A program made the position numbers and the translations under genes. A DNA stretch of 37,021 nt from a virus: IMG/VR virus record IMGVR_UViG_3300025131_000170, positions 1 to 37,021 of that record. The stretch is one strand, 5' to 3'. The notes below the pieces were generated by a model. That model did not search any database, had not been told where the DNA came from, and saw only the letters and a list, made by a program, of their open reading frames with translations. Numbering within the stretch: position 1 is the first letter of the stretch; each line of letters opens with the position of its first letter. Below are positions 8,147 to 36,794 of the stretch, one piece after another.

Positions 8147-8148
8147 GA

Positions 8149-18400: not shown

Positions 18401-21400
18401 TGAAGAGCCGAGACTGCTTGCGGGGATGGAGGCCGCCGCGGCGTTGGATTGGAACGTGGTTGTTTGCGTAATATAGTCCAGTTTCTTATCTTCTGAGAAG
18501 TTTATTCCGCCATGAATAAACTGTCTAAGTTTCGCATTGTAACTAACCGGAGAGCCATCTTGGCGGCGAACCTGTTGAGTCCTTGCATTGATTATTCCCT
18601 GACGCAAGTCCAGGCCCGGAACGTCCGAGGTCCGTTGCCAATATGGGCCATGCACGTTTTCAGGCCTTGGGGAAAGTGGAACGGGACTCAGTTTATTACC
18701 ACCCATCTGGGGATCGTCATTGGGCTGTCCCTTTCCGCCGCCCTTGCGCAAACGGGGCGGGAGCGGCTTGCCGGCGGCATCGGAAGATACAATAGCGCTC
18801 TCAATCTCGTTTATATTGTGTTCCAATGTTGGAAACTTTGTCTTGTATTTGCTACGCTCTAATGCGTGACTTTCAACAACATTGCGCACGTCTTCTGCAA
18901 AATCAGAAGATGCGGGAACTAATTGGTTCAACATCGATCCAAGCGAAGAGTCAATCCATTTATAGAATTCAACATATTTGTCTAAACTTGGTGTGTTTTC
19001 TACTCTTTCGAAAAACAAGTTTCTAAGCTTAGTTAAATCCTTATAGCGGCCGCGATAGCGATTTACTGGATTGCCGACTAAATTGCTAAAATCTTTTACA
19101 GTGGAGAACATATCCAGCATTTCTTGTGAAATGGTGTCATACATGCTCTTTTCAAAGGCAAAGAAGTGTCTGACTGGTCGCGAGTCCCTTGTGAAAACTA
19201 TATCGTCGTTATCCAATATTTTAACCATATCAGAACTGTTGATATTTTCAGGAATAGTTTGCTTGGCAGACAGTCGATAATCGATGTCTACGACATTGGT
19301 ATCTGAGGCCGCAAAGTTATAACCAAATCCCGGGTGTTGTGCTTCCAGGACATTCCCCAAAAATCCATATTTTTGATTTATGAAATCTTGAGAGCCTGAT
19401 GAGAAGTCTGCTACCAAAAACTTGCCGCTAGAATTAGAGGAGGACACCTGTTGGAAATCCCAGTTCAGCGCCAAAGTGTCTTTTTGTGGAACACGAATTC
19501 GTAGTACATCGGTGATCAGCGGGTACGCGTCTCGGTAAGGGTGTTTGCGTCCGTAGTTTAAGGGATCCCTAGCATGCGCTTTAAGCTCCTCATCCGAAAG
19601 GTAGTCCATCCAATAACGAAGGGAGTCGATACGTACATCGGTCTGTTGTACAACTGCACCAGTGAAATTGGTAAGATGGGAGCCGGCGTATACGCGATGT
19701 GAAGAGCTTAGGAAGGTCCGGGCGCGGGCGTTAGTGCTCATGGTCCCGGTAAGTGCAAAAGAGTTATAAGTGATATCTAGGATATTATTATAACCAGCGA
19801 ACTCCACTTCAAAGTCTTCAGAAGAAAGCCCAGTCCCAAAAGCAAAATCAGAGACTGGGTATTTCGCCGACTTTATTCTCACGGAAATATTCCAAGACTG
19901 GTTATCGTAAACATCTTCAAACAAGGCGGTTGTCAACTCTGGAATTGCGCCGGCGATTGAGGAAGATAATTTGAATCTAACGGACTTCGATTCCTTTTCA
20001 TCTCTTATGGCATAAACTTGGAAATTTGCCCTGTCGGGAACTGCGTATGTTGTCTGTGCCGGATCGTCGGCCCGGGCCGTATGCATTCCGAAGAGGGATG
20101 CCGTAAGGAAGTTAGTCTCAAAATAACCTTTTTGTTTACTTTCGAGTTTTTTGGGAAAGAAGACGTTAGTTTCTATGGTCCTGGGGATGTAAATTGTCCC
20201 GGGCGAGCCGGTGATAAAAGATACAGAGTTTGCGTTAAGGCTCGAACTATGCTGGTATATCGTACCATTAAAGTTGTTTGTTGCGTTAAAGTTAATCGTG
20301 TTCTTCTTAACTGTAGTAGAATCGTAGTTATCCTCGTAATTATACGTTGAGTTATCGGCATATACGTTGAGTCTGACCAAATCATCGCCAATACCGTAGC
20401 AACGTATGAGATTTCGGAAGGCCTTCTCGGTGCCTTTTGATTTGTAAATATAGACTAAGTTATTATATATATTTTGATATATTAGATTCTTGATGTTGTG
20501 CAACTTTTCTTCGAAAAGTATCTTTTCAGTTCTAGAGCCCAACTGTTCTAACACGTCAGCATCAACAAACATCTCCGGAGAGACAAAACCTGCTGAATCA
20601 AGCAAATTTCCTGCATATGGTAGCGGCTTGAGATCGTCACCGACCAAATATTGCACGTCCTTTACTTTGGGAAGATTCTCAATCTGAAGATAAAGTGAAT
20701 CCAAATAGCTTGACATTATTTGTGTCAACTTCAACAGAGTTGTATCGTCTTCTGCTAGAATCCACTCTGGAATAGAGTTATATATGGACGAGTTGTTGGT
20801 TCGGTCGTGCATTGAGCCGCTTTCCTTCAATTGCACTTGTAGGGTTGCGACGTCCGGATGGGCTGCGTATATGATTGGATCTTCGATTTCAAAAGGAGAC
20901 GCGCTGGCAGATACAATTGCTGACCCAGTGTTTCGGCTATATACCGAATCGTAACCGGTCCAAGCGCCGTTTGTAACCCTTCCGGAGTAGTCTAAAGCAA
21001 CCGAGTCTATTACAGAGTTTCCAGTAATACCCTCGTTGAATTTATAATAAACGCCCAAATCAGTATTGGCATCATCAGTGTTGGAACCCCCGTTAACTTG
21101 AGTAAACCAATATTTGCCGACTTCTTCTGCGTTCCGTTCATCCTTCCAATAACGTACCTCGTCAATGGAACCGGACATTTTGCACCAGCCGGTGCCAAAT
21201 GTCGTAGCGGCTGGCGTCGTGCGCAATTCTTGAAAGAGAGCACCGACAGATGCTTGGAGAGAACCTGTGGTCGCCGGGGCGGGAATAACCGGGGGTGTCA
21301 CCAAAAAGTTCGTAACAAGTTTCCCGTCCATGTAAGTTTTGGCCCTCAAACCACCGGTATCATTTTTAAAGGAAAACGCATAGTGATGCCAGGAGTCGAC

Positions 21401-22159: not shown

Positions 22160-23700
22160 TACTCAACTCTAAATTTAAAGATTGTTGGTTGCTCTCTGTA
22201 ACCGTTGTTATAAAAGTGCATAAATTGTAGCCCATATGCATACCCTGGCTCAAGGATGCTCATGTCAACGTCAATATAACTACCAGAAGCATCATACGAT
22301 AATCTCGTATAGGATTGTGCGTTCCCAACAGCCTGCGGAGTTGAAGAGCCTGTGGCAAATGGTACGATCTCCCAACCGTCTGTTACTCGAAATAGTTTGT
22401 AATAAACGTCATTTATTATCTCGCCATTTGCGGCCTTGGATGCAACCGTGTAGATTGTTGGACTCCAATCCTCTTTTCTGGTGAATAATCTGATCCTTGC
22501 GTCCTTTTCGCGCGTAGAGTAGACGTCTTTCAAGTTTGTTATGGATGTCACGAATGTAGGGTTGGGATTGTATTCAGAAGTTACAAAGGTCTTCGGGATA
22601 GACGAACCGGTAAAGAACTGAGTTCCACTCTTGTGCCAGACATCAAAGATCTTTGTCAAAGCGCTTGTTCCGGTAACCGCGAACGAGGCGGAGTATATAC
22701 CAGTAGAAACATAACCACCCGTAATATTTGTGTCCTCCGCGGCGACGATGCCGCCGCCAGGAGGCAACTTAAGCTTAGATTGGTCAGGAACTGTATTTGC
22801 TGGCCCCGAGCCTGAATACAAGCTCACCCACAGAATACCAGTTGCAACTGATGGAATATTTTGTAGCTGCCCATTAATCACATTGTAAAGATAGAAAGTG
22901 TTTAGATTATCAGCGGCCGGGGCGACAGAACTGCTAAAGTGGAAATTTCCCCTATCATCTCTCTTCGTGGAATCCCACCTAGCCTCGATCACTGGGCGTT
23001 TAAGGAAGAATTCCGATGTTCTTGAAAAGAATTTCTTTGTATAGTAGGATTTGGATGCGTCTTCTAAATCATTTCGAAGCTTGATCAACACACCATTGTT
23101 GCCTTTCGCGCCCAACACATTGCCAGCGCTGTCGAGCCATTGTTCAACAAGAGGAGTAATATCTAACTCTAGATCCTCTATTCCAGTTACAAAGGAGGCT
23201 GTAAAAGAAGAGGATACATCGATGTAATAATCTCCACCTTCAGATGTCCATGCGGTGGATCCTGCTCGCTCAATCCAGTTAGAACCGTCCACGTCATATG
23301 TGAGGTCCGTATAACCTTCCATGTCGAGGCCTGTGCCCTCTTCCCATGCGGTGGGCGCAACAGAACCATCCTGACCGCCTGAGATGGCCGAAATCACTAG
23401 ATCGAAATCGCGAGGGACTGTTTGTGAGTGCTTCGCGTTATACATCCGAAGATAGAAATCAACGCTGCCGCTGGCGGGAATGATTCCATCGTCCCTGCTG
23501 GTTGTGATATCCGAAACAGGAAACTGTATTACTATCCTCTCATCCTCCAAAGAAGATGTTGTCGCCTGTGCGTATATGTGGAACGTTTCAAGGATATCAG
23601 CCGCGCCCATGTTCGAGCCGGTACCTCTTGTCTTCAAGTTGGACTTGAAGGCATTCGTTATGGTGTTATCGGCAGTTGCCACATATCTCTTTACGCCCAT
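22159..23700 (-). CDS. Virion protein with DNRLRE-like N-terminal domain
   Basis: This 513-aa protein has a DNRLRE-like domain in its first 245 residues. It opens with ATADNTITNAFKSN, continues with RIVIQFPVSDI and SGSVDFYLRMYNAK, and ends with LELDITPLVEQWLDSAGN and then FFLKRPVIEARWDS. DNRLRE domains are beta-sandwich modules of extracellular surface proteins. The second half has beta-rich segments with VTGGYVSTGIYSASF-like repeats, an EYNPNPTFVTSITNLK motif and EDWSPTIYTVAS. I recall closely similar proteins in uncultured marine phage contigs, but cannot verify this here. ATG at 23700 overlaps the gp6 TAA by one base, with AGAGGA about 12 bases upstream. Position directly after gp6 and before the LamG giant suggests a baseplate-periphery or tail-fibre adaptor. 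No enzymatic motif is seen. Confidence 0.65.
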   Translation of the reverse strand: MGVKRYVATADNTITNAFKSNLKTRGTGSNMGAADILETFHIYAQATTSSLEDERIVIQFPVSDITTSRDDGIIPASGSVDFYLRMYNAKHSQTVPRDFDLVISAISGGQDGSVAPTAWEEGTGLDMEGYTDLTYDVDGSNWIERAGSTAWTSEGGDYYIDVSSSFTASFVTGIEDLELDITPLVEQWLDSAGNVLGAKGNNGVLIKLRNDLEDASKSYYTKKFFSRTSEFFLKRPVIEARWDSTKRDDRGNFHFSSSVAPAADNLNTFYLYNVINGQLQNIPSVATGILWVSLYSGSGPANTVPDQSKLKLPPGGGIVAAEDTNITGGYVSTGIYSASFAVTGTSALTKIFDVWHKSGTQFFTGSSIPKTFVTSEYNPNPTFVTSITNLKDVYSTREKDARIRLFTRKEDWSPTIYTVASKAANGEIINDVYYKLFRVTDGWEIVPFATGSSTPQAVGNAQSYTRLSYDASGSYIDVDMSILEPGYAYGLQFMHFYNNGYREQPTIFKFRVE

Positions 23701-25493
23701 TACTGAATTGATCCTCTAATGTCAGAAAGCGGTATTTTAATTTCCCAGATAAAATCTTCCGGGAATTCCACAAAGCGGCCGTCGGCAGATAAATTACCCA
23801 ATATATCATAACTAATGTCTGAATAAAGGCCGCCTGTCTTGTTGACAATCGTAACATCGACTGTATCTACCACTCCCGCAATATTGTTTAATGTGCTGTA
23901 TACACTACTGATGGTAAGAGACTCCCCTATGTCTGGAAGTATCTTAAACAAACTTACGAGCTTCGTGGTCGCTGTATCTAGAATGTCAAACTTGTTAGCA
24001 GACTTATCAATAACAACTCGGAAGTCGATGCCTACGTTAATTATGTTTCCATCAAGTATATCAACCGTGTCATGAATCATCTTATTCTTAACCAACCATG
24101 TCTTTAGATTTTGTTTAATTGAGCTATTCGTTGCTACCAAAGTGCCATCAAGTCCCTCCGAAAGGACGTAGAGATTCAAATTTCTCTTAAAGGAGTCAGT
24201 ATCCTTGATTATTGCAGCGCGTTTTACTCCTCCGAACTTTTCGGGCATTGCGTATACGTAACTAATATAGTCATTTTCTGTGACAATCCGGTTTTGAGTA
24301 GCAAAATAGTCAAGAGCACGAGTCTTTATTTCGGTCGAGGAGGGATACGATATATCCCCCACTATCATGTTGTCGTTATTTACCTCTAAAGAGGCGATGA
24401 CATCTCTTACTTTTGTATTGCTCAAAGTCGTAACATCATTAAAGACTATTACAGGATTTGCGACAGTTGAGAGACCCCCGACAGCAACATTCGTATTTGC
24501 TGCGCCGTTTTGTCTTGACGTTACAAACAGTGTTGTGTTTGATGGGACGATACCAAATTTATCAGTTCGATTAAGATTCGAAGGATCGAATGTCTCGTCG
24601 GTAACATAGTCTCGCGCATGTTGTTGAAGTACCACAGTTGCGGGATCGACTACTGAATCGTTCTTGCGCTCATTTTCGGAGCCATAACCAAATTGAATCG
24701 TCATGCCCGACGTCGTATTTTGTGAAATAAAGCGTCGCGGAACAGCGGTTGGTTTAAGTATACTCCTCACGGAGTCGATGTTGGCTGTTCTGTTTGGGAT
24801 TTCACGATATACAACATCTTGCGACAAATAATCAACTTCAAAGTACTCATGGCCTTCTGTATCGAACACGCTAACAACCTCAGCGATATTTGAGCCTGGG
24901 ACATCTAACGACCTGAATCGTTTGTGGGCGCCAACTATAAAGGAATTTTGTACTATCTCGCCAGATATGACATTACCTAAGGCTTTCACCGCATAATAGG
25001 TTGGAACGCCTGTGGTCGGGTTGACGCGAGCAACGACTATTTCATTGTTAGATTTTGCAAAATTCACATCCTCAGAGAGCATGAAAACTCCACCGTTCTG
25101 AGCCGAGAACGAAGAACCCTTCCTAAGAATCGGCATGTAAGTTGTGTCAGGAGCATTCGAAGCAGCGTTAGCTGGTACCAAGATATATAAAGACACAATT
25201 CCGTATGAAGTCGGATTCGGCTGAAACTCATACCCAAGTTGTCTTGCCAGCCTGATAACGTTGTCATATTCAACTGCCGAACTCAGCAAAGATTCGTTGG
25301 CCTGATAATCAAGATAGAAAGACAGAATGTCCCCCACATAGGCAACAGTATCCAACATTAGGGAGCCGAAGCCGGCTTCGCTAAAGTCTCGATAACTATC
25401 TGGATAGTACCTTTTCGCGTAATCAACTAGGTCTTGCTTGATTGAGGCGAAATCCCTACTTGTGTATTTTATTGGTAAGTTTTTTTTAGCCAT
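23700..25493 (-). CDS. T4 gp6-like baseplate wedge protein (baseplate J family)
   Basis: This 597-aa protein resembles gp6/gpJ baseplate proteins, which form the ring joining the baseplate wedges and trigger the conformational change on tail contraction. The N-terminus has YTSRDFASIKQDLVDYAK followed by FSEAGFGSLMLDTVAYVGD and FYLDYQANESLL, which parallels the start of T4 gp6. A core J-like segment near residues 395-425 (TRALDYFATQNRIVTENDYI) fits the arginine/valine-threonine/tyrosine pattern of the family. The length is close to T4 gp6 (about 660 aa). It follows gp25, the same order as in many contractile tails. It has its own upstream gap of 58 bp; the Shine-Dalgarno near ATG 25493 is weak, with a GAAGGA about 30 bases upstream. 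Assignment to the family is strong; equivalence to T4 gp6 rather than another J-like protein is inferred from gene order. Confidence 0.85.
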   Translation of the reverse strand: MAKKNLPIKYTSRDFASIKQDLVDYAKRYYPDSYRDFSEAGFGSLMLDTVAYVGDILSFYLDYQANESLLSSAVEYDNVIRLARQLGYEFQPNPTSYGIVSLYILVPANAASNAPDTTYMPILRKGSSFSAQNGGVFMLSEDVNFAKSNNEIVVARVNPTTGVPTYYAVKALGNVISGEIVQNSFIVGAHKRFRSLDVPGSNIAEVVSVFDTEGHEYFEVDYLSQDVVYREIPNRTANIDSVRSILKPTAVPRRFISQNTTSGMTIQFGYGSENERKNDSVVDPATVVLQQHARDYVTDETFDPSNLNRTDKFGIVPSNTTLFVTSRQNGAANTNVAVGGLSTVANPVIVFNDVTTLSNTKVRDVIASLEVNNDNMIVGDISYPSSTEIKTRALDYFATQNRIVTENDYISYVYAMPEKFGGVKRAAIIKDTDSFKRNLNLYVLSEGLDGTLVATNSSIKQNLKTWLVKNKMIHDTVDILDGNIINVGIDFRVVIDKSANKFDILDTATTKLVSLFKILPDIGESLTISSVYSTLNNIAGVVDTVDVTIVNKTGGLYSDISYDILGNLSADGRFVEFPEDFIWEIKIPLSDIRGSIQ

Positions 25494-25551: not shown

Positions 25552-25965
25552 TTAAAACAAGCCGGCTGCTCGACGAAGAGGCATAATGGAAACTCGGTCG
25601 GAGACACTTAGCGGCACGATCTCATAAGTTATCGAAACTGATAGAAAGTTTTCATCCGAGGCCTCGTCATCTGGTACCGTGAAATCTATTCCTTGTATTT
25701 GAATGAACGGCATATACTTCTCAACCTGTTTGTTTATCCTTGCAGCAATGTCGTCATACACCACTTCGCTTTGTGGTTCAAATAGAAATCTACGTAAACC
25801 TACTCCAAAATCAGTATCCATCATTCTTTCGCCAGGGATGGTTAAAACTAGATTTTTCATATTCTGTTTTACCATCTCGGGATATGTGGTGTTCATCAGG
25901 AACCCACTTTTGCCTGCTCGGCGAGCGGGCAATTTAGGTGAAATTCCAATTATAGAACTCGCCAT
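25552..25965 (-). CDS. T4 gp25-like baseplate wedge protein (GPW/gp25 family)
   Basis: This 137-aa protein matches the gp25/GpW family, which sits at the tube-sheath-baseplate junction in contractile tails and acts as the sheath initiator in T4. The family core is clear: NLVLTIPGERMMDTDFGVGL at residues 38-57, followed by RRFLFEP and then an amphipathic helix DDIAARINKQVEKYMPF. The C-terminus has the strand SVSITYEIVP typical of the fold. The length is near the usual 120-140 aa. I place the start at ATG 25965 (MASSIIGIS), whose first base overlaps the TAA of the upstream gene (TAATG) and which has GAGGA about 9 bases before it. A longer reading to 25998 would begin inside the upstream gene and has no better signal. 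Despite the old lysozyme label of the family, no lysozyme active site is needed or seen. Confidence 0.88.
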   Translation of the reverse strand: MASSIIGISPKLPARRAGKSGFLMNTTYPEMVKQNMKNLVLTIPGERMMDTDFGVGLRRFLFEPQSEVVYDDIAARINKQVEKYMPFIQIQGIDFTVPDDEASDENFLSVSITYEIVPLSVSDRVSIMPLRRAAGLF

Positions 25966-28900
25966 TATTCGTCTTCCTCGGGAACAACTTCTCCACACTT
26001 GTTGCTTTCAGACGCGGCGGATGGAGGCGGCATGCCTTGGGCGCCGGATGTCCTCTCGCTATACGGGACATTTTCACCAGGAAGTTTCCCTAACGCGTAT
26101 GCTGAAAGGCCCAAATTGGTGACTGGTGGGAGGGGGCTCCCTAGTATCATGTTAGCTGGTGCCGCAACGGCCAAGGCGGTGGGCCCTAGGCCGCCAGGGA
26201 GGAGTCCAATCTTGTCAAGTGCCGCGGCATATGCGTAGGATGGATCCTGATATTCTGCGAGGCCCTTGATAATGAAGGGGACCGTCTTGGCGGCCGCATT
26301 TCCACTTTGGCCAGATGTCGAAGCAAATCTATTTTGATTCTTAAGAAGGCCCTGCGGACCACCAACGGCAGCCAAGTTTGGATCCTCATATTTATAGAAC
26401 TCCTCTATCGGGAGATCTGGTTGTGCGGCGAACATTGCAGCAATCAATGATTGTTTGGTTCTAAAAAACGCGCTATCAAGAGACTTGTTTGTAAACGTCC
26501 CAGTTTGCATACAGTAAATAGCTAACAAAGAAGTTAATCTTGAACTTCCTAATGCGAAATCAAACAAGATTTGAAAATCTGGATTGTTGCGAATAAGTCT
26601 CTCTTTTAGCCTCGTTATATTTGGGTTGAATATCCTTTGGCGAGACCAGCCGCCGAAGCCGGCTTCGACACTCCAATCCTCCCCGGGCCTCAGGGCTTCA
26701 GAGCCATAAAAATTAGCAATCGTTATTCCAGGATCCTTAGTTAGTATATCCACTGTCTCTTCTAGTACAGGTATTGTACACATGGTTTGGTGAGGGAAGA
26801 TTTCTGTAGAGTCCCCTTCATTCCGCTCGTCGGCTGGGCGCATGTTAGTTTGAATTTTTATCTTATAGGCTTTTTTAATTTCAGCAAGGTCACTAAACCT
26901 GTGGTCATCAACATCGGGGTCGTTGGGGTCGACGCCATTGAGATTGGCTATTCCCTCGACGACAGTATCCCACTCGCGCCACTCCTGGCCCGGGAGGTCA
27001 GAGACGAACATCTCGGGGAACACCTCATCCACGTTTCTTGGAATCACATATGTTAACCGGACTCCGTATTTCAAACTTGCAAAATATTCGCTAAGTTTCC
27101 TTTGTCCGAACTGGGCCACAGCATCCAGTTGGCCGCGGACATACCTGTAGTTTTCGGCGCGGCGCCGGCGGACAGTGTCCCAGACGCGTAGGTCGGAAAT
27201 GACTGGGGTGAAGAACACTCTCTCTATCTCGATCGCAGTCGAGCCGGCCGATGGGGCCGCGGCGATCGCAAGGGCGTCAGAACCTGGGGTGAAAACATTG
27301 TCAGGAGGAGTGTCGCTATCCGGGTTGTTCTCGCGCCACAGTTTCTCTTTAGCCTTCGGCGTGATGGGGGTGCTGCCGTCGCCGGCGAGGCCGTCTCGTC
27401 GCAGGCGGGCCGGGAAGGAGGGGTCCATGTGAGCCGCTTGAGCGTAACCTTTGATAGGTGATTGAAGCCAAATTGGCGCGCCCTCGTCGTCGTCGCCCTG
27501 GATGCCTCGAAATTGGTGCAAGTATTCCGATTCAACAAAGACTCTTACTGCGCTCCTAAAATATTCTTTAAAGGCTTCAAGGTTTTCTACTTGCTTTGTA
27601 GAATACTCCCAATTCTGCAAATTGCCTTCGAACATCGTCAGGAATATATCGTTATGTGGTACATCATCGCCGCGTAAAGGTTCATACTCAATGAAATATT
27701 CGAAAACAAAGTGGCCTCCATCTAGATGTTGAAACCGAGGGTTAAGGGCTGGGACGTCGTACTTCGGACCCAACTGAACACGTACCCAGTTGTCCATGTC
27801 CTCCGGGGCGCCGAGGTTTGGATCGTGGACAATATCGCCGTGCTCGGGGTCAGAGGTGCGAGGGGACGATAAAAGTATTCTTTTGGCGTGCCGGCCGGCG
27901 AACTGGGCGTGCTCGGGGGCCATGGGCATCGTCGAGTTGGACGCTCCCCAATAGTGCGTTTCGTTTCTGAGGTATGCACCAGCATCAGGGTCTGTCGGAT
28001 CAAGAACTGGGCGTTGGGTCGAAGGACGGAATGGAAACGTAACGCCTGCGTCCCCGACCCCAAGTAGTGTTGACTCTGGTACCGGGGCGATCCCAATCGA
28101 ATCCCCGAGCGCTTGCATTAGAGGCGGGCGGCTTTCATCTGGAATTTCGCGACTCATGGTTTTACCAATTTCTTCAAAAACGCCGGAAGAGACCTCAACA
28201 ATGACGTCCTCCAAATTTCCAAGACCTGATTTTATCAGTTGGTCTTCAAAATTCCGAACAGGATCGTCGGAGGGGCCCAACTTCGCGAAAGCCGCAACAT
28301 TGAAATTGATGAACTCCTTCAAGCTGGCTATTGTGTAATCTTTTGTATATTTCAGCAATATGTTATCTTTGAATATAGCGCTACTTCCCTTGAACATGGA
28401 TAGTGCAAATATGTTTCGAACAGCAATATCTGCGACGTGAATTCTAACAATACTTCTCAAAATAGACGGTATGCTTGCCTCCTGAAGAGGGCGCGCCTTG
28501 GGGAGTTCCGCGTCTGGATTTCGGGCAATCATAGCCTCCCTTTCTTTTATTATTTGACTATATTTTAGTTCAGTCTGTTTTTTCTCATAACCTGTTCTCA
28601 TTATATTATCGTGACTTTGGGTGCCCGGGGGACACGTAATACTCTGGTTCAAATAAATATCAAATAGACCCTTAAGGGGTGATTCTTGGTGAACTTCAAA
28701 CAACGGTGACGAGGCGATAAGGCTTGCTATGAGATCAAGTTGAGTTGTTAAAGAGTTGATGTACAAAGAGCTAGCACCATCAGAGGCGCGCCCGACCACG
28801 TTGGCGGCGGGCTCGCCGGGAAGAACCAAGTTTGACATCGGGATATCAAAGGTAGAAGCGATAGAACTAGCAATATAGTTTGAAAACATCAATTGCTGCG

Positions 28901-31900
28901 GCGTGCGCCAGAGGGGACCCGCAGAATCTTTAAGAAATTCGGAACGATTTTGTTCCAAATGTTGGATCAACCCTTCGTCAAGGACTGGAAAGTCGCTCAC
29001 ATTGTTGCTAGAAACTATAACTGTCGATATGTCATCTCGGTCGATCCCATCTGAACCAATCCGCATTGGTATTTGTGCCATATATCTCTTTTGATAAAAG
29101 TTTATATTCGGGACCGGGCGAGGTGAATCCGCAGGGGCAACAGCGTAAGTAGTGTAGGACATCGATCCCAATGTGCTTGAATCTGCGCCGGCGAAAGACA
29201 CAAATTTAAAATCAACGACTGGACCATGGTGCCCCATGTCAGCAGGGTGAGCAGGGATGACTGATAGGGTAGGAGTTTCATCTGAGGAGGTTACATTTGA
29301 AAGAGACCTTTGTAAACCCGGGAGGACTGCGCTGTAAACCACAGTGGAATCTGGGGTTTCGTCGGCAGCAATCTGCTCTCTGGTCATCTCATGAATACGG
29401 GCGTCGGTCGCACCATCGGCGAAGGCGCTAAGGTTGTGAAAAATGAATTGATATTGAGGGTCCCCCTTCTGTGCTAGCCTAGACTCTTGTACCGTTAACA
29501 ATCGCGGGAAAGAAGAAAGCTCTTGGCTGAAACTATTGTCTATTCCGGCAAACTGTGAATCAACAGCCGCATTGGTCATGAAAGAGTTCGAAGGATCTTG
29601 TGGTGGAGTGGCAGCTACACCACAATCGGTGAACATCTGATCGTAAGGAGAGTTCATCAAGGACGCTAGATTGCGAAGTTTTTCAGCAGTAATCCGCCTC
29701 TCAGCCGCTAACATCCTTTCTATTTCTTCAGGAGTAGCTCGATCTGCATATGAATTTCTAAAATTTTCTTCAAATTTTAGAGCGTTGATTTCGTCACAAA
29801 CATACTGTCCCACGTCAAAGCGAGTGCGTTCATCTAAATTGCGTAAGTCTGCATTGCGCGCCGAATGAGCGAGGACATCCATAGCATCGCTTGGATCTAG
29901 ACCAACTAAATGTTCTCCGGCGGCTCGTTCGATAACTTCTGAATTCTTGCCAAGCTCTTCGCCAGAGAGGGCAGCCCGAAGTTCACCAGGGTTGAGACAC
30001 TGACTAACCTCGTCCATGAAATTGGTTATATGTTCGGCCGGCGACGTGCCTGGTTTTGCTGGATTGAGAAGAGCTTCAGCATCAATTCCCCAGTCATATA
30101 AAGCACTTTTAAACTGGTCGACAGGAACTTGCTTAGAATCCTCCCAGATACTCTGCACCCTATCCTTTCCAAAACTTCTTAGATCGCTCCAGTTACAAAG
30201 TATATTTTCAAAGTTTTTCAGCAGAAGTGCTAAAATTTCTTTAATAGTTCCAACGACTAACTCGTCCGTTGTAAGTCTTAAAGCTTTGAGAAAGCTATCC
30301 CAAATTCCCACGCTGACGTCCGTAATGGAGGGGAGTGTTGGGAACTTTATGGTTGGGATCTCCCACGGAGAATCTTCGCCATCCTTTTTGGGTTCTGGGC
30401 ACAAGTTTTCCCGATCGTAGGCCAAAAAGGTGCTAGTATTCTTTTCTAGGAAATTCTCAACATGGCCTCGCCAACCAAACAGGCGCGCAGGAGTGGGGCA
30501 CACTTTCTCAAGAGCGCGACCCATGCATTCGTTATCCGCATGACCGTCTGCGACTAGTTGTGCAATCTTGGAGGCGGCGGCAGTAACGTCTTCGGGGCAA
30601 CTGCTATCCACATCGTCAAACGCGCCGGAATCGGCGAGGATGCTCGGGTCTATACACTCGGTGGCCACCTGATTCAACTCAATATAATCTAGAACTGTGA
30701 GGGAGGCCTCGAACAGTGCCTTGTTGAAGTCCTCTTGAAAAGTTTCCGATGTCAACATGCGCATTCCGACACCTGCCAGATATTTCATATCAACTTTATT
30801 TAATATCTTATCATACGCTTCTTTTGAGGTGCTGATAGAGTCCATCACCTCTTTGGTGGCGCCGGCGGACAGAAGGAGATTTCCTACAAAGTTGGTTTCC
30901 TCTTTTCTTTTGTCAGCAGCTTTTATTTTTCTCTCGGCAGTTAAGGCGCGCTGGTCCTCCCTTGCCTCATCAGCCGTTTTAACTGTCTTTGCATCCTTGA
31001 AGATCTTTTTGACATCCCCTATTATTTCTCGGCCGCGGCGTGAGTTTGAGAAACGGTCAATAACATAAGCTGATTTGTGGGAATACTCGGTGATGAACTC
31101 ATACCATGGCGGTGGGGTGGGACACTCAAACGCTTCTTTCATTTGTTTTAAAGTCGCGACGTACCTTCGAGTCCTCACAAACTTCATCGGGAAAGTGCGA
31201 TTAAAACTCGCAAAACCTATATTTAATTTCCGAGCTATATTGTTAGGAGGGCCCTCTCCTCGTATACCTATACTGTCTAAAGTATAATCTTCTGTAAAAC
31301 TAAGTTGCAACACTTGGCCGCCAGGTAGAATCTCTATGTTGTTGAACAAGAGCATCTTCTGCAAATTAGGGTAAACAGCGCGGAGACGCTTAGCCTCACG
31401 GGCGAGGTTTAAGTCGGGACTTACATTTCCGTCTTGATGACTGCTTATTTCACCAGAATATTCATCCAACTTTTCTGCTGTTGAATTCAACAAACTTTGT
31501 AGAGTAGATAAATTATAATTTACCACAGAAGCGATCGGAGCTTTAGGTACCGGAAGGAGGTATCGATCCGGGTTGTGCGGAATAGAATCCCAAAGATCGG
31601 CGTTAACACAAACTAGGAACCTAAGTGTGGAACAAGGCCTAGAGTCTAAGTGATATTTCGTGGCCCGGGCCGTTTGTAACACAGCGGCAGGACCATAACC
31701 AGAGCCAATGTCTTTGTTGTAAAATTTATAAAGGTTTTGGACACCTTTACCCAAAGCTGCCGGGCGTCCTTCGCGGATTACCTCTTCGCTTGCAAAAGTC
31801 GCATCAGTTGCAACTACAATGCAATATTGGTTCGTGACAGAATCATAGAAAGGCTGATCCTCATTCAAATCCCGCCAATCTGGAATAGAGAGCCTAGTGC

Positions 31901-31937
31901 TAAGCGCTCTTGAGGGTCTTCGTATTCTTTGAGTCAT
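25965..31937 (-). CDS. Very large baseplate/tail-associated protein (about 1990 aa)
   Basis: This protein is not assigned to a named family. The first 300 residues are mixed alpha/beta (for example SIPDWRDLNEDQPFYD and LQLSFTEDYTLDSIGI). Residues about 330-380 are charged and helical (KTADEAREDQRALTAERK). Residues about 440-620 carry several cysteines and a long amphipathic helix (LVVGTIKEILALLLKNFEN). A helical Asp/Glu-rich region follows to about 800. Residues about 1270-1400 and 1490-1620 are encoded by more GC-rich DNA and are Pro/Asp-rich. The C-terminal 150 residues are Ala/Gly/Pro-rich. I choose ATG 31937, 2 bp after the upstream TAA; a TTG at 31967 would extend it by 10 residues. Neither start has a clear Shine-Dalgarno. 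Position between the spike-like gene and gp25 suggests a baseplate hub or tape-measure-like role, but a tape measure usually has more uniform helical content. Confidence 0.65.
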   Translation of the reverse strand: MTQRIRRPSRALSTRLSIPDWRDLNEDQPFYDSVTNQYCIVVATDATFASEEVIREGRPAALGKGVQNLYKFYNKDIGSGYGPAAVLQTARATKYHLDSRPCSTLRFLVCVNADLWDSIPHNPDRYLLPVPKAPIASVVNYNLSTLQSLLNSTAEKLDEYSGEISSHQDGNVSPDLNLAREAKRLRAVYPNLQKMLLFNNIEILPGGQVLQLSFTEDYTLDSIGIRGEGPPNNIARKLNIGFASFNRTFPMKFVRTRRYVATLKQMKEAFECPTPPPWYEFITEYSHKSAYVIDRFSNSRRGREIIGDVKKIFKDAKTVKTADEAREDQRALTAERKIKAADKRKEETNFVGNLLLSAGATKEVMDSISTSKEAYDKILNKVDMKYLAGVGMRMLTSETFQEDFNKALFEASLTVLDYIELNQVATECIDPSILADSGAFDDVDSSCPEDVTAAASKIAQLVADGHADNECMGRALEKVCPTPARLFGWRGHVENFLEKNTSTFLAYDRENLCPEPKKDGEDSPWEIPTIKFPTLPSITDVSVGIWDSFLKALRLTTDELVVGTIKEILALLLKNFENILCNWSDLRSFGKDRVQSIWEDSKQVPVDQFKSALYDWGIDAEALLNPAKPGTSPAEHITNFMDEVSQCLNPGELRAALSGEELGKNSEVIERAAGEHLVGLDPSDAMDVLAHSARNADLRNLDERTRFDVGQYVCDEINALKFEENFRNSYADRATPEEIERMLAAERRITAEKLRNLASLMNSPYDQMFTDCGVAATPPQDPSNSFMTNAAVDSQFAGIDNSFSQELSSFPRLLTVQESRLAQKGDPQYQFIFHNLSAFADGATDARIHEMTREQIAADETPDSTVVYSAVLPGLQRSLSNVTSSDETPTLSVIPAHPADMGHHGPVVDFKFVSFAGADSSTLGSMSYTTYAVAPADSPRPVPNINFYQKRYMAQIPMRIGSDGIDRDDISTVIVSSNNVSDFPVLDEGLIQHLEQNRSEFLKDSAGPLWRTPQQLMFSNYIASSIASTFDIPMSNLVLPGEPAANVVGRASDGASSLYINSLTTQLDLIASLIASSPLFEVHQESPLKGLFDIYLNQSITCPPGTQSHDNIMRTGYEKKQTELKYSQIIKEREAMIARNPDAELPKARPLQEASIPSILRSIVRIHVADIAVRNIFALSMFKGSSAIFKDNILLKYTKDYTIASLKEFINFNVAAFAKLGPSDDPVRNFEDQLIKSGLGNLEDVIVEVSSGVFEEIGKTMSREIPDESRPPLMQALGDSIGIAPVPESTLLGVGDAGVTFPFRPSTQRPVLDPTDPDAGAYLRNETHYWGASNSTMPMAPEHAQFAGRHAKRILLSSPRTSDPEHGDIVHDPNLGAPEDMDNWVRVQLGPKYDVPALNPRFQHLDGGHFVFEYFIEYEPLRGDDVPHNDIFLTMFEGNLQNWEYSTKQVENLEAFKEYFRSAVRVFVESEYLHQFRGIQGDDDEGAPIWLQSPIKGYAQAAHMDPSFPARLRRDGLAGDGSTPITPKAKEKLWRENNPDSDTPPDNVFTPGSDALAIAAAPSAGSTAIEIERVFFTPVISDLRVWDTVRRRRAENYRYVRGQLDAVAQFGQRKLSEYFASLKYGVRLTYVIPRNVDEVFPEMFVSDLPGQEWREWDTVVEGIANLNGVDPNDPDVDDHRFSDLAEIKKAYKIKIQTNMRPADERNEGDSTEIFPHQTMCTIPVLEETVDILTKDPGITIANFYGSEALRPGEDWSVEAGFGGWSRQRIFNPNITRLKERLIRNNPDFQILFDFALGSSRLTSLLAIYCMQTGTFTNKSLDSAFFRTKQSLIAAMFAAQPDLPIEEFYKYEDPNLAAVGGPQGLLKNQNRFASTSGQSGNAAAKTVPFIIKGLAEYQDPSYAYAAALDKIGLLPGGLGPTALAVAAPANMILGSPLPPVTNLGLSAYALGKLPGENVPYSERTSGAQGMPPPSAASESNKCGEVVPEEDE

Positions 31938-31939
31938 AA

Positions 31940-32881
31940 TTAGGTGGTGTTGTTGTGCCGACTGCAAATGTAGTCATAACTTCGAACATCCGTTAGGTAT
32001 TTTTCCCTCCACTTGCCTAAGCTCTTCCTTACGGTATCGATGTCTGGCGACGTGATCTCTGCATGTGCCGTAAGAGTACGAGGGCCCACTATCTCAGCAA
32101 CAATCGATGTGGTGGTTGGCATCTCGAAAAAGGGTGATTGATGAAAATGCTGAACAAAAGCCTTATTCAATTTTGTCTGCGCGGTTAACATACCCTTGAC
32201 AACAGCAGCCAACTTATCCACTTCTTCCGATAAAGATTCGAGGCACCCCATTAAATTTTCACCTTTAACAAGAGGTTGTAGTAAGTAGTCTTGTCCGTAA
32301 ACAATTAAATCTATCCCTACTAATTCGCTAATTTTTGCATTTTGCGAATTGATCGGATCCCCTCCAGAAACGATTTTAACCCCCTCTCTTCCCACGATTC
32401 TCACTCCATCGGCTTTTATACCAACGCCAGATCGATTTTCCAAATTGCCGCTGCCTCGGGCATATTTCTCCAAGTCAAAGTTCTTGTCGATATCTGTTAA
32501 CTGGCTGAGATATATCCGAGCAGCGTCTCTTTTGAAGTCAGGATCAACATAGATGTCTTCATCGTCTTTAGTTTTGGCTATCGGGTTCGCTGACAAGCGA
32601 CCGACAACCAAGTCGATGCTTGCTGCGCCAGTGTCACCAGATCCGCCATGGCCAGAAACAAGATTGGCGGGCCTGTCTCGGCCCAAGACGATCCAAGAAT
32701 TCTGCCCGTTTGTTAAAACGTTTTCGCTTGAAGCTTGAATAAACTTTGGAATTGGCTCAAGGGATTTATCACCCCCTATGCCTAAAACGTTGGCGCGCTG
32801 GCCTGGGTTTGCGCGTTCAAGAGCCTCAGTAGCTTTTTTACCAATCCCTCTTCTATTTACGGCTGGTCTTTTATCTGCCAT
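31940..32881 (-). CDS. Spike-like baseplate protein with short beta-helix-like segment
   Basis: This 313-aa protein lies directly after the two peptidoglycan hydrolases and before the baseplate core. Residues 60-95 contain NSWIVLGRDRPANLVSG and then GAASIDLVVGR. Residues 150-175 (SGVGIKADGVRIVGREGVKI) have alternating strands with Gly turns, like the rungs of phage spike beta-helices. A coiled-coil-like helix follows at about 207-242. It ends with QHFHQSPFF at 244-252; HxH motifs bind metal at the tip of some phage spikes, though here the motif follows a helix and may be unrelated. AGAGGGATGT precedes ATG 32881 and gives a good ribosome site. In T4 the gp5 protein combines OB-fold, lysozyme and beta-helix; here the enzyme and spike parts seem to be on separate genes. 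The spike role is inferred. I recall similar proteins next to gp25 in marine phages. Confidence 0.55.
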   Translation of the reverse strand: MADKRPAVNRRGIGKKATEALERANPGQRANVLGIGGDKSLEPIPKFIQASSENVLTNGQNSWIVLGRDRPANLVSGHGGSGDTGAASIDLVVGRLSANPIAKTKDDEDIYVDPDFKRDAARIYLSQLTDIDKNFDLEKYARGSGNLENRSGVGIKADGVRIVGREGVKIVSGGDPINSQNAKISELVGIDLIVYGQDYLLQPLVKGENLMGCLESLSEEVDKLAAVVKGMLTAQTKLNKAFVQHFHQSPFFEMPTTTSIVAEIVGPRTLTAHAEITSPDIDTVRKSLGKWREKYLTDVRSYDYICSRHNNTT

Positions 32882-32890
32882 ACATCCCTC

Positions 32891-34177
32891 TTATGCAAAA
32901 ACCTCTTTTGCAAAAATTACGTTGCGCGTTAATCTTTGAGTCTCATTACTTTTTTCTTCAACATACACAGATAAATCACTTGTGAACTCTTCGCCAGAGT
33001 TCCAATTATCGCGAGGCATTTGCACTTCCCAGTGCCATGGCTCATTGCCATATGGAGAAAACCCGTATTTATAGGCGTTGTGCTGTAACCAGCGATAGGC
33101 CGGCTCCCTCAACATTCTTGAAATTTGAGCCTTTTTTGGGGTCAGCCCATTGTTACCAAAATCAATAGCCAGCCCTGTTTCATGCGGAGACGCGTATGCC
33201 ATCCACTTGCGCCCCTCACGAAGACTGCCGTAACCCCTTGGTGGAGGTGCTTCCATCCTGTCAACATACTGCTTGTAGCTTCTCCATTTGTGACGACGCC
33301 AGCCGGAGGCGGCTTTAAAGGGAGCCTTTCCCGGGTTGGCAGCAACCCAGGCCCGATTCATTGCTTCCAACCTCTTGGCCACCAAGGTATGCACCTTTCT
33401 CGTGGTGCCAACACTTGGAATCGGTACTAACAGGGGAGAATCTGAAGGAAGGGCACCAAACGCGTTCCGACGAACTCGATTTTCTGTGAACGGGGCGCCC
33501 TCTTTCAAAGTAACAGTTGTGTCGCGTGACTGAAAGGTTTCAAGCACAGTATTTAGGGCGCCGGGGTCACCATGTGGGGCGGCAGGGGTCGCTGCGCGTG
33601 TAGTAGGGCCTAGGCGGGATCCCGGGGCGGAGGAGTTAGGCTTTGCTGACACAGGTTCAAGCAAAATACCATTCGTTGCATTCACCGAATCAACGTATTT
33701 TATCCAAACCCAATCGCCCGGGGTGAGTTCACCAACCCTGATTCCAGCCGAAGAGGCAACCGTAACTTTGGCAGAAGAGTCGGGTAGCAACGTATCAACG
33801 AGAGCCTGCCAATCGGGATCAACCTGATTAATCGTTATATCCCTCTGGTCGGCAACTATCCATGGATCCGGGATCCCAGAATGAACTATCGGCACATATA
33901 CAATGGCAGACGTCAAGGCGGGCGCACTAGCACCAAAAAAACTACCTGCCCAACCCAAGAAGCTTCCATTATCAGCATCTGAGGAAAGTTCGTAACAAAC
34001 TTTTGCCAATTGGCGGCCGCGAATGTCTATATTGGCATTTTTTTCAATCTTGTCAATAGTTGTATGCACACTTCCGCCTAAAAATCCAGTGGTGCGAGGA
34101 TCTAATGTCCGATTTGGGATCATTGGACGCGTGGCGCTAGTATCTAAAATCTTCGCTATTTTGTCATCAACTGCCAT
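32891..34177 (-). CDS. Virion-associated M15 peptidase (D-Ala-D-Ala carboxypeptidase-like) with shared N-terminal domain
   Basis: This 428-aa protein has two parts. Residues 1-175 are about half identical by eye to the same region of the upstream amidase gene (TLDPRTTGF, GSFLGW, LLPDSSAK, VDSVNATNGILLEPV). The pattern YVPIVHSGIPDP ... LTPGDWVWIKYVDS suggests an OB-fold-like virion-anchoring domain. Residues about 250-395 form an M15/VanY-type zinc peptidase: ASPHETGLAIDFG supplies His332 and Asp339, and NEPWHWEVQ supplies His382, the three expected zinc ligands; Glu379 precedes PWH. Such enzymes cut peptide bonds in peptidoglycan stems. Residues 395-428 are a charged tail. A Pro/Ala/Ser-rich linker joins the domains. 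CAGGAG lies about 12 bases before ATG 34177. The enzyme probably opens the cell wall during injection rather than acting as the lysis endolysin, but both uses are possible. Confidence 0.85.
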   Translation of the reverse strand: MAVDDKIAKILDTSATRPMIPNRTLDPRTTGFLGGSVHTTIDKIEKNANIDIRGRQLAKVCYELSSDADNGSFLGWAGSFFGASAPALTSAIVYVPIVHSGIPDPWIVADQRDITINQVDPDWQALVDTLLPDSSAKVTVASSAGIRVGELTPGDWVWIKYVDSVNATNGILLEPVSAKPNSSAPGSRLGPTTRAATPAAPHGDPGALNTVLETFQSRDTTVTLKEGAPFTENRVRRNAFGALPSDSPLLVPIPSVGTTRKVHTLVAKRLEAMNRAWVAANPGKAPFKAASGWRRHKWRSYKQYVDRMEAPPPRGYGSLREGRKWMAYASPHETGLAIDFGNNGLTPKKAQISRMLREPAYRWLQHNAYKYGFSPYGNEPWHWEVQMPRDNWNSGEEFTSDLSVYVEEKSNETQRLTRNVIFAKEVFA

Positions 34178-34197
34178 TTTATCTCAACTCCTGTATC
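33653..34197 (-). repeat. Tandem-duplicated N-terminal domain, copy 2 (with leader)
   Basis: This is the second copy of a segment that also lies at 34970-35515. It covers about 20 bases of leader plus roughly 175 codons. The DNA similarity is visible around the start (GCAGT[TC]GATGACAA/GAG) and the protein similarity extends to NATNGILLEPV. The copy also contains a short vestige of the end of the small gene found upstream of copy 1 (ATA CAG GAG TTG AGA TAA, 34196-34179), which shows that the duplication took in the junction. Confidence 0.75.
34179..34196 (-). pseudogene. Vestigial last codons of the duplicated 35496-35798 gene
   Basis: On the minus strand these 18 bases read ATA CAG GAG TTG AGA TAA. 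The true end of the small gene upstream of the amidase reads ATA CAG GGG TCA AAA TAG. In both places one base separates the stop from the start codon of the following hydrolase (TAA A ATG here, TAG G GTG there). The simplest reading is that duplication of the hydrolase N-terminus carried along the tail of the preceding gene, which now serves only as leader and ribosome binding site (CAGGAG). Confidence 0.65.
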
Positions 34198-34201
34198 GAA
34201 C

Positions 34202-35494
34202 TCACGTCGTCTTCGTGTCGCTACTTTTAATCAAGGAAGCCATTCTGGGCCCATTGTGCTCTCGGTGATCGTATTGAAGGTTGTTGACACGGAGCCACTT
34301 AAAGTCTGGCAGCGGATCGTTGTGGTGTCCCTTTACTACTTCAAAATGTGCAAGTATGTGCTTATCGTCGCGGGGGATACCCCTTCTCGCAGATATATCC
34401 TCAATCAAAAGATTGAGGGCGTCATATTGCGCATCGGTATACTTTCCATTTTTCCCTTCTGGGTGTGGTATTTTCTTCTTCTTCTTTCCGCCGGCTGTGG
34501 TTATCGTTTTCTTCTCGGGGGAGATGTGCACATTTCTTAACTCTATACCTATCGATCTAGTGTTTGGGGCCTTGATAGCCGGCTTCGCGGCGCCGGCATG
34601 CCTCCCCGCGGTTGACTCCGCCATCAACTGATAGATGGTGCCGTCTCCATCGATAAAGTAATGGGAAGAGAGTTTTTTCAAGTTAAAATGCCCAATAAGA
34701 CTCGCCACCGAGGCCGGGCCCGACTTGAGTTGTCCTCCGGATTTGTCCTTCCCCATGAAAGACCAGCGGCCGCCGTCGTGCAGGATGATCATGTCATATG
34801 CTTTGCGTTTCAATCTGGATTGATATTTCTGCATACCAAAATATTTCATGTTGGCAGCCGCGTAGTCGCCGGCTGCTGCGGGATCTTGAGGAGTCGTGGG
34901 ATTACCGGCTTCGAATTCGGCCCTCGTGCGGGGGGGAGCAGCACCTTCGAGATCTGCAGTAGATTCAACTGATTCAAGTAAAACACCGTTCGTCATGTTC
35001 ACAGAATCAATATATTCGACCCAAGCCCATTGTCCCGGGTCGAGATCTGTAGCCCCAAATTGGACTGAGGAGGCTGCGGTAAACTTGGCAGAAGAGTCAG
35101 GCAACAGCGTATTGACAAGAGAAACCCACTCCGGGTTGGTTCGGTGCACTTCTATATTCCTCTGGGCAGCTACGGAGAACGGATCGGGAATACAAGAGTG
35201 AACCATCGGCACATATGCGATGACGGTTTGTAGGTCCCCGAAGCGGGCGCCAAAAAAGTCCTCAACCCAGCCAAGAAAACTTCCCCCGTTGTCGCTAGGA
35301 AAGAGTGAGTAACAAATTTTTGCCATTTGGGGGCCCGAAACATCTATATCAGCATTGCTTTGGATTGCGTCAATAGTTGTGTGCACACTTTCCTGCAAAA
35401 ATCCAGTAGTGCGAGGATCCAGTGTTCGGTCGGGTATCAATGGACGCTCGGCACACGTACTCAGAATCCTTGCTACCTCGTCATCGACTGCCAC
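34202..35494 (-). CDS. Virion-associated N-acetylmuramoyl-L-alanine amidase (Amidase_2) with shared N-terminal domain
   Basis: This 430-aa protein joins the same N-terminal domain as its downstream neighbour (residues 1-175) to a zinc amidase of the Amidase_2/T7 lysozyme-PGRP type (about 230-400). The enzyme cuts between N-acetylmuramic acid and L-alanine. Key parts are MIILHDGG (zinc ligand His239), SHYFIDGDGTIYQL, TAGRHAG, RSIGIELRN, and LAHFEVVKGHHNDPLPDF with His383 and probably Asp393 as ligands and Lys388 nearby. A Lys-rich loop (GGKKKKKIPHPEGKNG) lies near 336-350. The linker (177-215) is Ala/Pro/Glu-rich. Translation probably starts at GTG 35494, one base after the upstream TAG, with AGGGG about 9 bases before. 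The arrangement suggests a baseplate-borne wall-degrading enzyme acting at entry. A lysis role is possible, but the N-terminal domain shared with the peptidase favours a virion location. Confidence 0.87.
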   Translation of the reverse strand: MAVDDEVARILSTCAERPLIPDRTLDPRTTGFLQESVHTTIDAIQSNADIDVSGPQMAKICYSLFPSDNGGSFLGWVEDFFGARFGDLQTVIAYVPMVHSCIPDPFSVAAQRNIEVHRTNPEWVSLVNTLLPDSSAKFTAASSVQFGATDLDPGQWAWVEYIDSVNMTNGVLLESVESTADLEGAAPPRTRAEFEAGNPTTPQDPAAAGDYAAANMKYFGMQKYQSRLKRKAYDMIILHDGGRWSFMGKDKSGGQLKSGPASVASLIGHFNLKKLSSHYFIDGDGTIYQLMAESTAGRHAGAAKPAIKAPNTRSIGIELRNVHISPEKKTITTAGGKKKKKIPHPEGKNGKYTDAQYDALNLLIEDISARRGIPRDDKHILAHFEVVKGHHNDPLPDFKWLRVNNLQYDHREHNGPRMASLIKSSDTKTT

Positions 35495-35515
35495 CCTATT
35501 TTGACCCCTGTATCA
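34970..35515 (-). repeat. Tandem-duplicated N-terminal domain, copy 1 (with leader)
   Basis: This copy includes the end of the 100-aa gene, the GTG start of the amidase gene and about 175 codons. Its leader shares about 14 of 20 bases with that of copy 2 at 33653-34197, including GATACAGG. Since here the leader is also living coding sequence (the end of the small gene), this copy keeps the older gene junction. Confidence 0.75.
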
Positions 35516-35798
35516 TGTCAAACAGTTCGTCTTTGTCTGTTTCCGACAAGGCGGCTGGGGAGGATCCCTGTTTATGCAGAATAGTACACACCTTGACCAA
35601 CTGCTCATTTGACCTTTGTAGGGTTTCCACATATTTTGCCGCAATAGTGCCCATCTCCTTGTGGTTCATTTCGTTCCTCTTTAATAGAATCACAACATCG
35701 GCCAACAACGAATTTGTCACGGCGCGATCAGAGTTTATATTTTTTACGGCATCCGCTAAGTGCTTTTCTAAGTCACCTAGATCTCGCCCTTGTTCCAT
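35496..35798 (-). CDS. Small helical/coiled-coil protein downstream of late sigma factor
   Basis: This 100-aa protein is predicted to be nearly all helical: heptad-like hydrophobics run through DLEKHLADAVKNIN, NSLLADVVILLKRN and YVETLQRSNEQLVKVCTIL. The end is acidic and hydrophobic (SETDKDELFDMIQGSK). It has no signal peptide or membrane segment. I choose ATG 35798 because GGAAG at 35808-35804 lies 5 bases before it; the ATG at 35810 is part of that same GGAAG context and has only a distant GAGG. Either start overlaps the end of the sigma factor gene. Its last codons form the leader of the amidase gene. Function is unknown. Its place next to a gp55-like factor raises the idea of a gp33-like late co-activator, but a tail chaperone or structural adaptor is as likely. 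Confidence 0.65.
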   Translation of the reverse strand: MEQGRDLGDLEKHLADAVKNINSDRAVTNSLLADVVILLKRNEMNHKEMGTIAAKYVETLQRSNEQLVKVCTILHKQGSSPAALSETDKDELFDMIQGSK

Positions 35799-36469
35799 TT
35801 TATCTTCCATGTTCTGTATCTAAACCTCATCTTGTTTAAATTGTTGACAACCTGTTTCGTATTGAGACCGGTTAACTCTCTTATGTACAGATAAATAGCT
35901 TTTTTATTAAAAATTTCGATATCATTAGTACTCTCAAAAAGAACCATCACGGCCTTATAAACTTTCTCTTCATTCGTTTTCATGTTATTTGAATTCCAAG
36001 AGTTTATCTCTTCATATAAGAATTTCCAAAACTCTCCCGACTCCCTACTTTTCACATAGGATTCATCGGTCATAACATATTTGGATTCCAAGTCTTTGTT
36101 GAGATCATCATAGTAAATCTCCCTCCGGACTTGGACAGAGTTCTTCTTGACCTTATGAATGAACCAGTTCTTGGTGACAACACTGAAATATGAAAAGGCT
36201 TTTGAGCCTTTGCTTTGATCGTACTTCTCCAATATGGTGGTTAACCAAATCTTGCATTCGTCTCTCAACGAATCGATGTTCGGAAGAGTTGTAAATTTAT
36301 ACGTATATACAATCTTATCAACTAACTCGTCAAAGGCTGGTCCTATGTACTCTCGATATAGTTCCTCGCGCCGGTCGAGGTCATCAGAGGCCACATATTC
36401 CACAATAGCATTCTCATGCACTTTTGTGAAATAGTGATTAGAATTCCGCTTCTTCTTTTTCTTTTCCAT
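35777..36469 (-). CDS. T4 gp55-like late transcription sigma factor
   Basis: This 230-aa protein resembles the short sigma factors of T4-type phages that direct host RNA polymerase to late promoters. The best match is residues 80-109 (KYDQSKGSKAFSYFSVVTKN followed by WFIHKVKKN), a sigma region 2-like segment with the aromatic run used in promoter melting. A helix-turn-helix-like end (YIRELTGLNTKQVVNNLNKM, about 195-214) may be region 4-like. I start it at ATG 36469 (MEKKKKKRNSNHYF), with GGA 7 bases upstream; a longer frame to 36556 would lie wholly inside the upstream gene. It overlaps that gene by 32 bp. T4 gp55 is 185 aa, so this one is somewhat longer. In T4 gp55 works with gp33 and the gp45 clamp; neither is identifiable here. 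Alternative reading: another small phage sigma factor of the same superfamily. Confidence 0.7.
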   Translation of the reverse strand: MEKKKKKRNSNHYFTKVHENAIVEYVASDDLDRREELYREYIGPAFDELVDKIVYTYKFTTLPNIDSLRDECKIWLTTILEKYDQSKGSKAFSYFSVVTKNWFIHKVKKNSVQVRREIYYDDLNKDLESKYVMTDESYVKSRESGEFWKFLYEEINSWNSNNMKTNEEKVYKAVMVLFESTNDIEIFNKKAIYLYIRELTGLNTKQVVNNLNKMRFRYRTWKIKWNKGEI

Positions 36470-36794
36470 ATTGTTCCAATTCGTGTAAAGGCTCTTCAAA
36501 CTCGTCGTCGGTGAGAGGCAGCGAGTTAGAGAACTCGAACGTCCTAAAAACCTCATCCATCTGTTTTGAGTGCTTAAGCAATTCAGATAAAGTGGGGTCT
36601 CCGTAAAACGTTTCCAACTCGTATACTTGCTTAAGGTGAGCCGTGTAAGCGGTACTAATCGACCTCAAATCAGAGACGTCATCGACAATCATTCGTATAC
36701 GGCTAATAAGTTGCTTACAGTACCAAACAAGCAAAAGCACAATGGCTGTCAAGACAAACGCCAGCGAGTAAACAAAATAAATATTATTTAACAC
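36438..36794 (-). CDS. Small membrane-anchored coiled-coil protein
   Basis: This 118-aa protein has one N-terminal membrane segment (residues about 5-27, FVYSLAFVLTAIVLLLVWYC), then a basic flank and a helical region with VSDLRSISTAYTAHLKQVYE, the compact motif LETFYGDPTLSELLKHSKQM and an acidic C-terminus (EYGKEKEEAEF-like). I recall similar small proteins with a YELE-FYGDETL-type motif next to sigma or zinc-ribbon genes in marine T4-like phages; I cannot check this. The start is GTG 36794, with GGGAG 8 bases upstream, overlapping the end of the preceding gene by 11 bp. The topology suggests a short tail in the periplasm or a cytoplasmic domain tethered to the inner membrane; the side is uncertain. 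Function is unknown. Confidence 0.65.
   Translation of the reverse strand: MLNNIYFVYSLAFVLTAIVLLLVWYCKQLISRIRMIVDDVSDLRSISTAYTAHLKQVYELETFYGDPTLSELLKHSKQMDEVFRTFEFSNSLPLTDDEFEEPLHELEQYGKEKEEAEF

Follow-up and report, generated by a model that had tools for sequence, protein, structure and literature searches.

Why should one phage carry, side by side, two different wall-cutting enzymes on what appears to be the same base, when the tail tip of T4 is the textbook homotrimer with one lysozyme? The question is raised by an uncultured T4-like phage known from the 37-kb virus fragment IMGVR_UViG_3300025131_000170 (hereafter the window, i.e., the whole analysed stretch of 37,021 nucleotides). The two genes and their domains are as follows.

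34202–35494, minus strand: putative hub gene copy 1, OB domain and N-acetylmuramoyl-L-alanine amidase, 430 aa, GTG start
34967–35494, minus strand: predicted OB domain (gp5 N-terminal type) of copy 1, residues 1–176
34313–34798, minus strand: Amidase_2 domain of copy 1 (Pfam PF01510), residues 233–394, with H239, E318, H383 and D393
32891–34177, minus strand: putative hub gene copy 2, OB domain and M15/VanY-type peptidase, 428 aa
33650–34177, minus strand: predicted OB domain (gp5 N-terminal type) of copy 2, residues 1–176
33026–33397, minus strand: VanY/M15 domain of copy 2 (Pfam PF02557), residues 261–384, with H332, D339, E379 and H382

The two products are paralogous at their N-termini (BLASTP, 57% identity over 197 residues, E 8e-74), and their C-terminal parts are unrelated to each other. 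The preliminary description of the locus, made from the sequence alone, had correctly recognised adjacent genes sharing residues 1–175, but its estimate of roughly half identity was too low, the value being 60% over residues 1–176. The divergence into an amidase and an M15 peptidase, which it had also proposed, was borne out by Pfam matches to Amidase_2 in copy 1 (E 4e-20, 72.9 bits against a curated cut-off of 26) and to VanY in copy 2 (E 1.4e-7, 31.8 bits against a cut-off of 25), so that the duplicated base indeed bears two enzymes of different families. The zinc residues named in it (H239, H383 and D393; H332, D339 and H382) all lie at their predicted positions, and E318 and E379 can be added to them. 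Both open reading frames and all these catalytic residues are intact, with zinc ligands present in each enzyme; no further copies of the shared domain were found in the 37-kb record. An assembly artefact was considered as the source of the twins and judged unlikely, since the copies are merely 60% identical and two other twin loci (L111 and L115, see below) recur identically in other metagenomes.

As to the nature of the shared part, its OB-like look, already remarked upon in the preliminary description, is backed by a profile-profile comparison of 85 N-domains with 12 T4-like gp5 OB domains, which gave a probability of 82.5% and an E-value of 9.8e-6 (for a single pairwise comparison) over 71 columns; 100 column-shuffled profiles reached at most 2.1%, and the reversed profile 1.1%. 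When the N-domain was compared by hhalign with individual gp5 proteins, each a single sequence only, no clear match emerged, although the best alignments obtained with the T4 and the P-HM1 protein fell on the OB regions of these. Fold searches gave weaker support. The structure prediction and fold search suggested earlier as a check did list OB folds and gp5/VgrG-named proteins, but the model was of low confidence (pLDDT 58, pTM 0.51) and the matches were weak: in the PDB, OB folds were abundant, together with baseplate proteins of PVC, P1 and phi812, all individually weak and none below E 0.2, and the viral fold search returned matches at E 6e-4 and 1e-3, followed by an uncultured marine virus's M23 peptidase (4e-3) and, at lower ranks, several OB proteins named gp5 or VgrG. 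Neither Pfam Gp5_OB nor, with the OB profile, any PDB sequence matched the twins' N-terminal domain, and direct searches and tblastn against an annotated phage collection found no homologs of the M15 protein, the OB domain or the spike; weak pentapeptide-repeat matches from that collection were taken as chance. Judging from the profiles, what the twins share at their N-termini is very probably an OB domain of the gp5 type that has diverged.

Endolysins often have Amidase_2 or M15 domains, and several PHROG matches of the amidase are endolysin families; one might accordingly take both twins for soluble lysins that release the progeny, with the shared part as a wall-binding domain. This we consider very improbable: the N-terminal part matches gp5 OB and, in Pfam, none of the wall-binding families, and the gene neighbourhood, given below, argues in the same direction.

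35777–36556, minus strand: late sigma factor, gp55-like (phrog_234, E 1e-4)
35496–35810, minus strand: conserved 104-aa gene with the VETLQRSNEQ motif, adjoining the hub slot on its upstream side
31940–32881, minus strand: spike-like protein of 313 aa in a gene of its own, probable counterpart of the gp5 C-terminal part
25552–25998, minus strand: gp25 baseplate wedge protein (PF04965, E 1.6e-11)
23700–25493, minus strand: gp6-type baseplate wedge protein (phrog_219, phrog_10646)

In the order of transcription, the gp55-like late sigma factor and the 104-aa gene are followed by the amidase hub gene, the M15 hub gene, the genes of the 313-aa and 2000-aa proteins, gp25 and gp6. The hub genes are part of a run of baseplate genes, gp25 and gp6 lying downstream of them, and their slot is conserved in about 100 loci. 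One relative, L058, has an OB-like part and the spike family fused in a single 503-aa protein (97.5% for the spike part, hhalign). Both this fusion and the place of the slot, flanked by a conserved gene and the spike gene, speak against lysins acting in solution. Several neighbours deserve a remark of their own. The VETLQRSNEQ motif of the 104-aa gene is almost invariant, and the gene adjoins the hub slot upstream in relatives too. The fold search with the spike model gave no useful match, and the spike alignment was too divergent for a collection scan; an H-x-H motif, QHFHQSP in the window, is frequent near the C-terminal part of the spike family and is reminiscent of metal-binding spike tips. 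The 2000-aa protein between spike and gp25 (25965–31967, minus strand) has no PHROG match and is conserved in L004. A 3227-aa protein (12476–22159, minus strand) matches Laminin_G_3, a concanavalin-like lectin family, with E 6.5e-26, and probably serves in adhesion as part of the tail or baseplate.

The relatives were gathered by two scans, one with the gp6 alignment and the other with the 104-aa gene; the sample consists of the nearest 80 matches per scan, and slot frequencies given here are therefore not unbiased. The order 104-aa gene, hub, 313-aa homolog was found in about 100 loci among the matches listed. Run against 6,340 ORFs, the N-domain HMM detects 84 of the 101 non-redundant slot genes and, apart from these, just four hub genes from truncated or mis-bounded loci. 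The gp6 relatives include Microcystis phage Mel-JY01, Flavobacterium phage immuto and large uncultured phages, which have one larger protein at the corresponding place, with no enzyme recognised in it. Very large hub proteins (1277–1524 aa) with a single OB domain occur in L097, L113, L132, L156, L159, L173 and L178, and in L125, L145, L146 and L152 a separate gene, which resembles the enzyme or bears an extra one, comes after the OB-type gene.

Among the matches listed, the only close relative is L004. It shares the block, its flanking proteins being 93–95% identical, but has just one hub gene, which encodes an SLT-like enzyme (PF01464, E 4e-5). At the DNA level its homology with the window ends at about residue 173 of both OB domains and returns at the start of the spike gene. 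Its OB domain is 72% identical to that of the M15 copy and 63% to that of the amidase copy. Since the OB domain of the M15 copy is closer to L004 than to its own twin (60%), the history of the pair must go beyond one simple within-phage duplication. The greater divergence of the amidase copy's OB domain could also be taken to mean that one twin is a functionless spare, either in decay or acquired recently. We find this improbable, as neither copy has a broken reading frame or lacks any of the named catalytic residues, and the two-copy state of L111 and L115 was common to them throughout their divergence, with one enzyme type kept and the other changed, which indicates that two copies can be kept.

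How widespread such multiplication is can be seen from 88 non-redundant slots in IMG/VR loci. A single recognisable OB copy is present in 74 of them, two copies in four (the window, L111, L115 and L134) and three copies in two (L123 and L091, the copies of the latter recognised solely through mutual similarity); in the remaining eight the profile detected no OB copy. More than three copies were found in none of the 88 slots, within the sample of the nearest 80 matches per scan. On the spike tree the multi-copy slots are scattered over no fewer than five parts. In L123 the three OB copies carry Amidase_2, M15 and a third domain; the C-terminal domains of this third copy and of L115 copy 1 gave no usable family match. 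The copies of L091 are M23-like, GDSL and bare, and L134 has one copy with an enzyme and one bare. In the L134 region 7266–10318 the enzyme domain also occurs as a stand-alone gene behind the bare OB copy, its product sharing 29.5% identity with the enzyme part of the first copy. L111 and L115 go back to a common older duplication, after which the SGNH-type copy was kept and the enzyme of the other copy came to differ; copy 2 of L115 matches Lipase_GDSL, copy 2 of L111 is assigned to the SGNH type only through similarity to it, and copy 1 of L111 is tentatively SleB-like, an assignment made by eye (the Hydrolase_2 match has an E-value of only 0.055). With the exception of L111 and L115, hub copies cluster by phage, a pattern that recombination between copies could imitate. 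The twin pair of the window is not isolated; it represents one of the states that this slot takes, its enzymes being exchangeable and its copies numbering one to three.

The enzymes themselves vary broadly. Among 91 hub-slot proteins Pfam recognised VanY in 11, M23 in 10, Amidase_2 in nine, M74 in four, M15_4, DUF2272 and SLT in three each, Lipase_GDSL_2 in two, and Lipase_GDSL, GH25, M15_3 and Phage_lysozyme2 in one each. The spike tree covers 88 slots, of which 51 have an enzyme label, assigned by clustering with members confirmed in Pfam. It requires a minimum of 18 changes of enzyme class, the least possible number being five, although the classes are still more clustered than random (at least 18 changes against 26.7); the "SGNH" cluster label of the bare L091 copy, an artefact of the shared N-domain, was taken out before this count. 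The M15 domain of the window has a homolog in the single-copy hub L094 (E 7e-27), so that the same type of enzyme is found on more than one OB base. Flanked by the 104-aa gene and the spike gene, the slot appears to work as a cassette, in which the OB domain is kept, the enzyme is swapped and the number of copies ranges from one to three.

The observations on the twins, namely their paralogy, OB-type profile, catalytic residues, baseplate synteny, enzyme exchange and repeated multiplication, lead us to suppose, with good though not full confidence, that they are paralogous, exchangeable tail-hub lysins of the T4 gp5* type, which would be located in the virion, form trimers and serve for entry. 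The OB domain would dock each twin on the hub, above the spike encoded by the next gene, and tail contraction would bring the enzymes to the cell wall. There the amidase copy would cut the MurNAc-L-Ala amide bond and the peptidase copy a stem-peptide bond, and these complementary cuts by two wall enzymes on paralogous adapters may open a hole for DNA entry.

In T4, gp5* (OB domain and lysozyme) is cut from the beta-helix gp5C by proteolysis, the OB domain is the adapter between hub and spike, and the enzyme works on the wall once the spike has dissociated (PMC3004832). The window resembles this system in having an OB adapter followed by a wall hydrolase within a baseplate block, the OB-enzyme and the spike being separate chains in mature T4 as well; it differs in that spike and OB-enzyme are encoded by separate genes, that the enzymes are an amidase and a peptidase rather than a lysozyme, and that the OB-enzyme unit is present twice. 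The Prochlorococcus phage P-HM1 likewise has its OB and spike parts split between nearby genes, PHM1_022 and PHM1_024 (Gp5_OB, E 1e-4; Gp5_trimer_C, E 7e-4), but it has a single OB gene, in which no wall-enzyme family was matched; a VanY peptidase is encoded by another nearby gene, PHM1_019. The VgrG proteins of type VI secretion form a related OB/spike machine. As for phage P1, its gp5 matches the OB domain and beta-helix of T4 gp5 (PMC9024508) but is devoid of lysozyme, the wall enzyme of P1 sitting on the tape measure protein. In marine T4-like phages gp5 is highly divergent, which was read as adaptation to the host wall (PMC7029224). No description of tandem, multi-enzyme hubs was found in the open-access literature.

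Whether the two copies meet in one hub is a further matter. That they do so as a heterotrimer, the "two-enzyme drill" of the preliminary description, seems to us a possibility not far short of even. A mixed trimer is plausible because copies number one to three and never more in the sample, bare copies stand beside armed ones, and a mixed VgrG trimer is on record. The paralogous VgrG1, VgrG2 and VgrG3 of V. cholerae are reported to work as a mixed trimer of two extended subunits and one bare (PMC8668125), although they belong to a bacterial secretion system and their extensions have functions besides wall cutting, whereas the window is that of a phage with tandem paralogs bearing wall enzymes; for its own species the same work stresses the need for multiple effectors rather than mixing itself (PMC8668125). 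It is less likely, though by no means far-fetched, that the twins never share a hub, each forming homotrimers, so that virions carry either enzyme as a bet-hedging between host walls. T4 gp5 is a homotrimer (PMC3004832), and the single-copy relatives, 74 of the 88 slots, must homotrimerise if the hub is trimeric. However, the limit of three copies, like the V. cholerae precedent, fits poorly with this reading, and the bare copies of L091 and L134 look like filler subunits rather than stand-alone lysins.

Returning to the mixed trimer, we would extend it to the family with somewhat more reserve still: a hub of these phages may be one trimer on one spike, composed of as many as three OB paralogs that bear a wall enzyme of their own or lack one, so that several chemistries would act at one spot and phages would adapt to host walls by swapping or adding subunits; L123, with its triplicated base, would be an example. 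The freely exchanged enzymes and the one, two or three copies in related phages point to tail tips that can be assembled from mixed parts. A mixed hub, if true, would be a phage counterpart of mixed VgrG spikes. The slot loci also constitute a large natural set of adapter-enzyme pairs. If related marine phages do swap and multiply the enzyme-bearing subunit of the hub, the wall-drilling part of their tail would be a fast-evolving device for matching the host, comparable in this respect to tail fibres.
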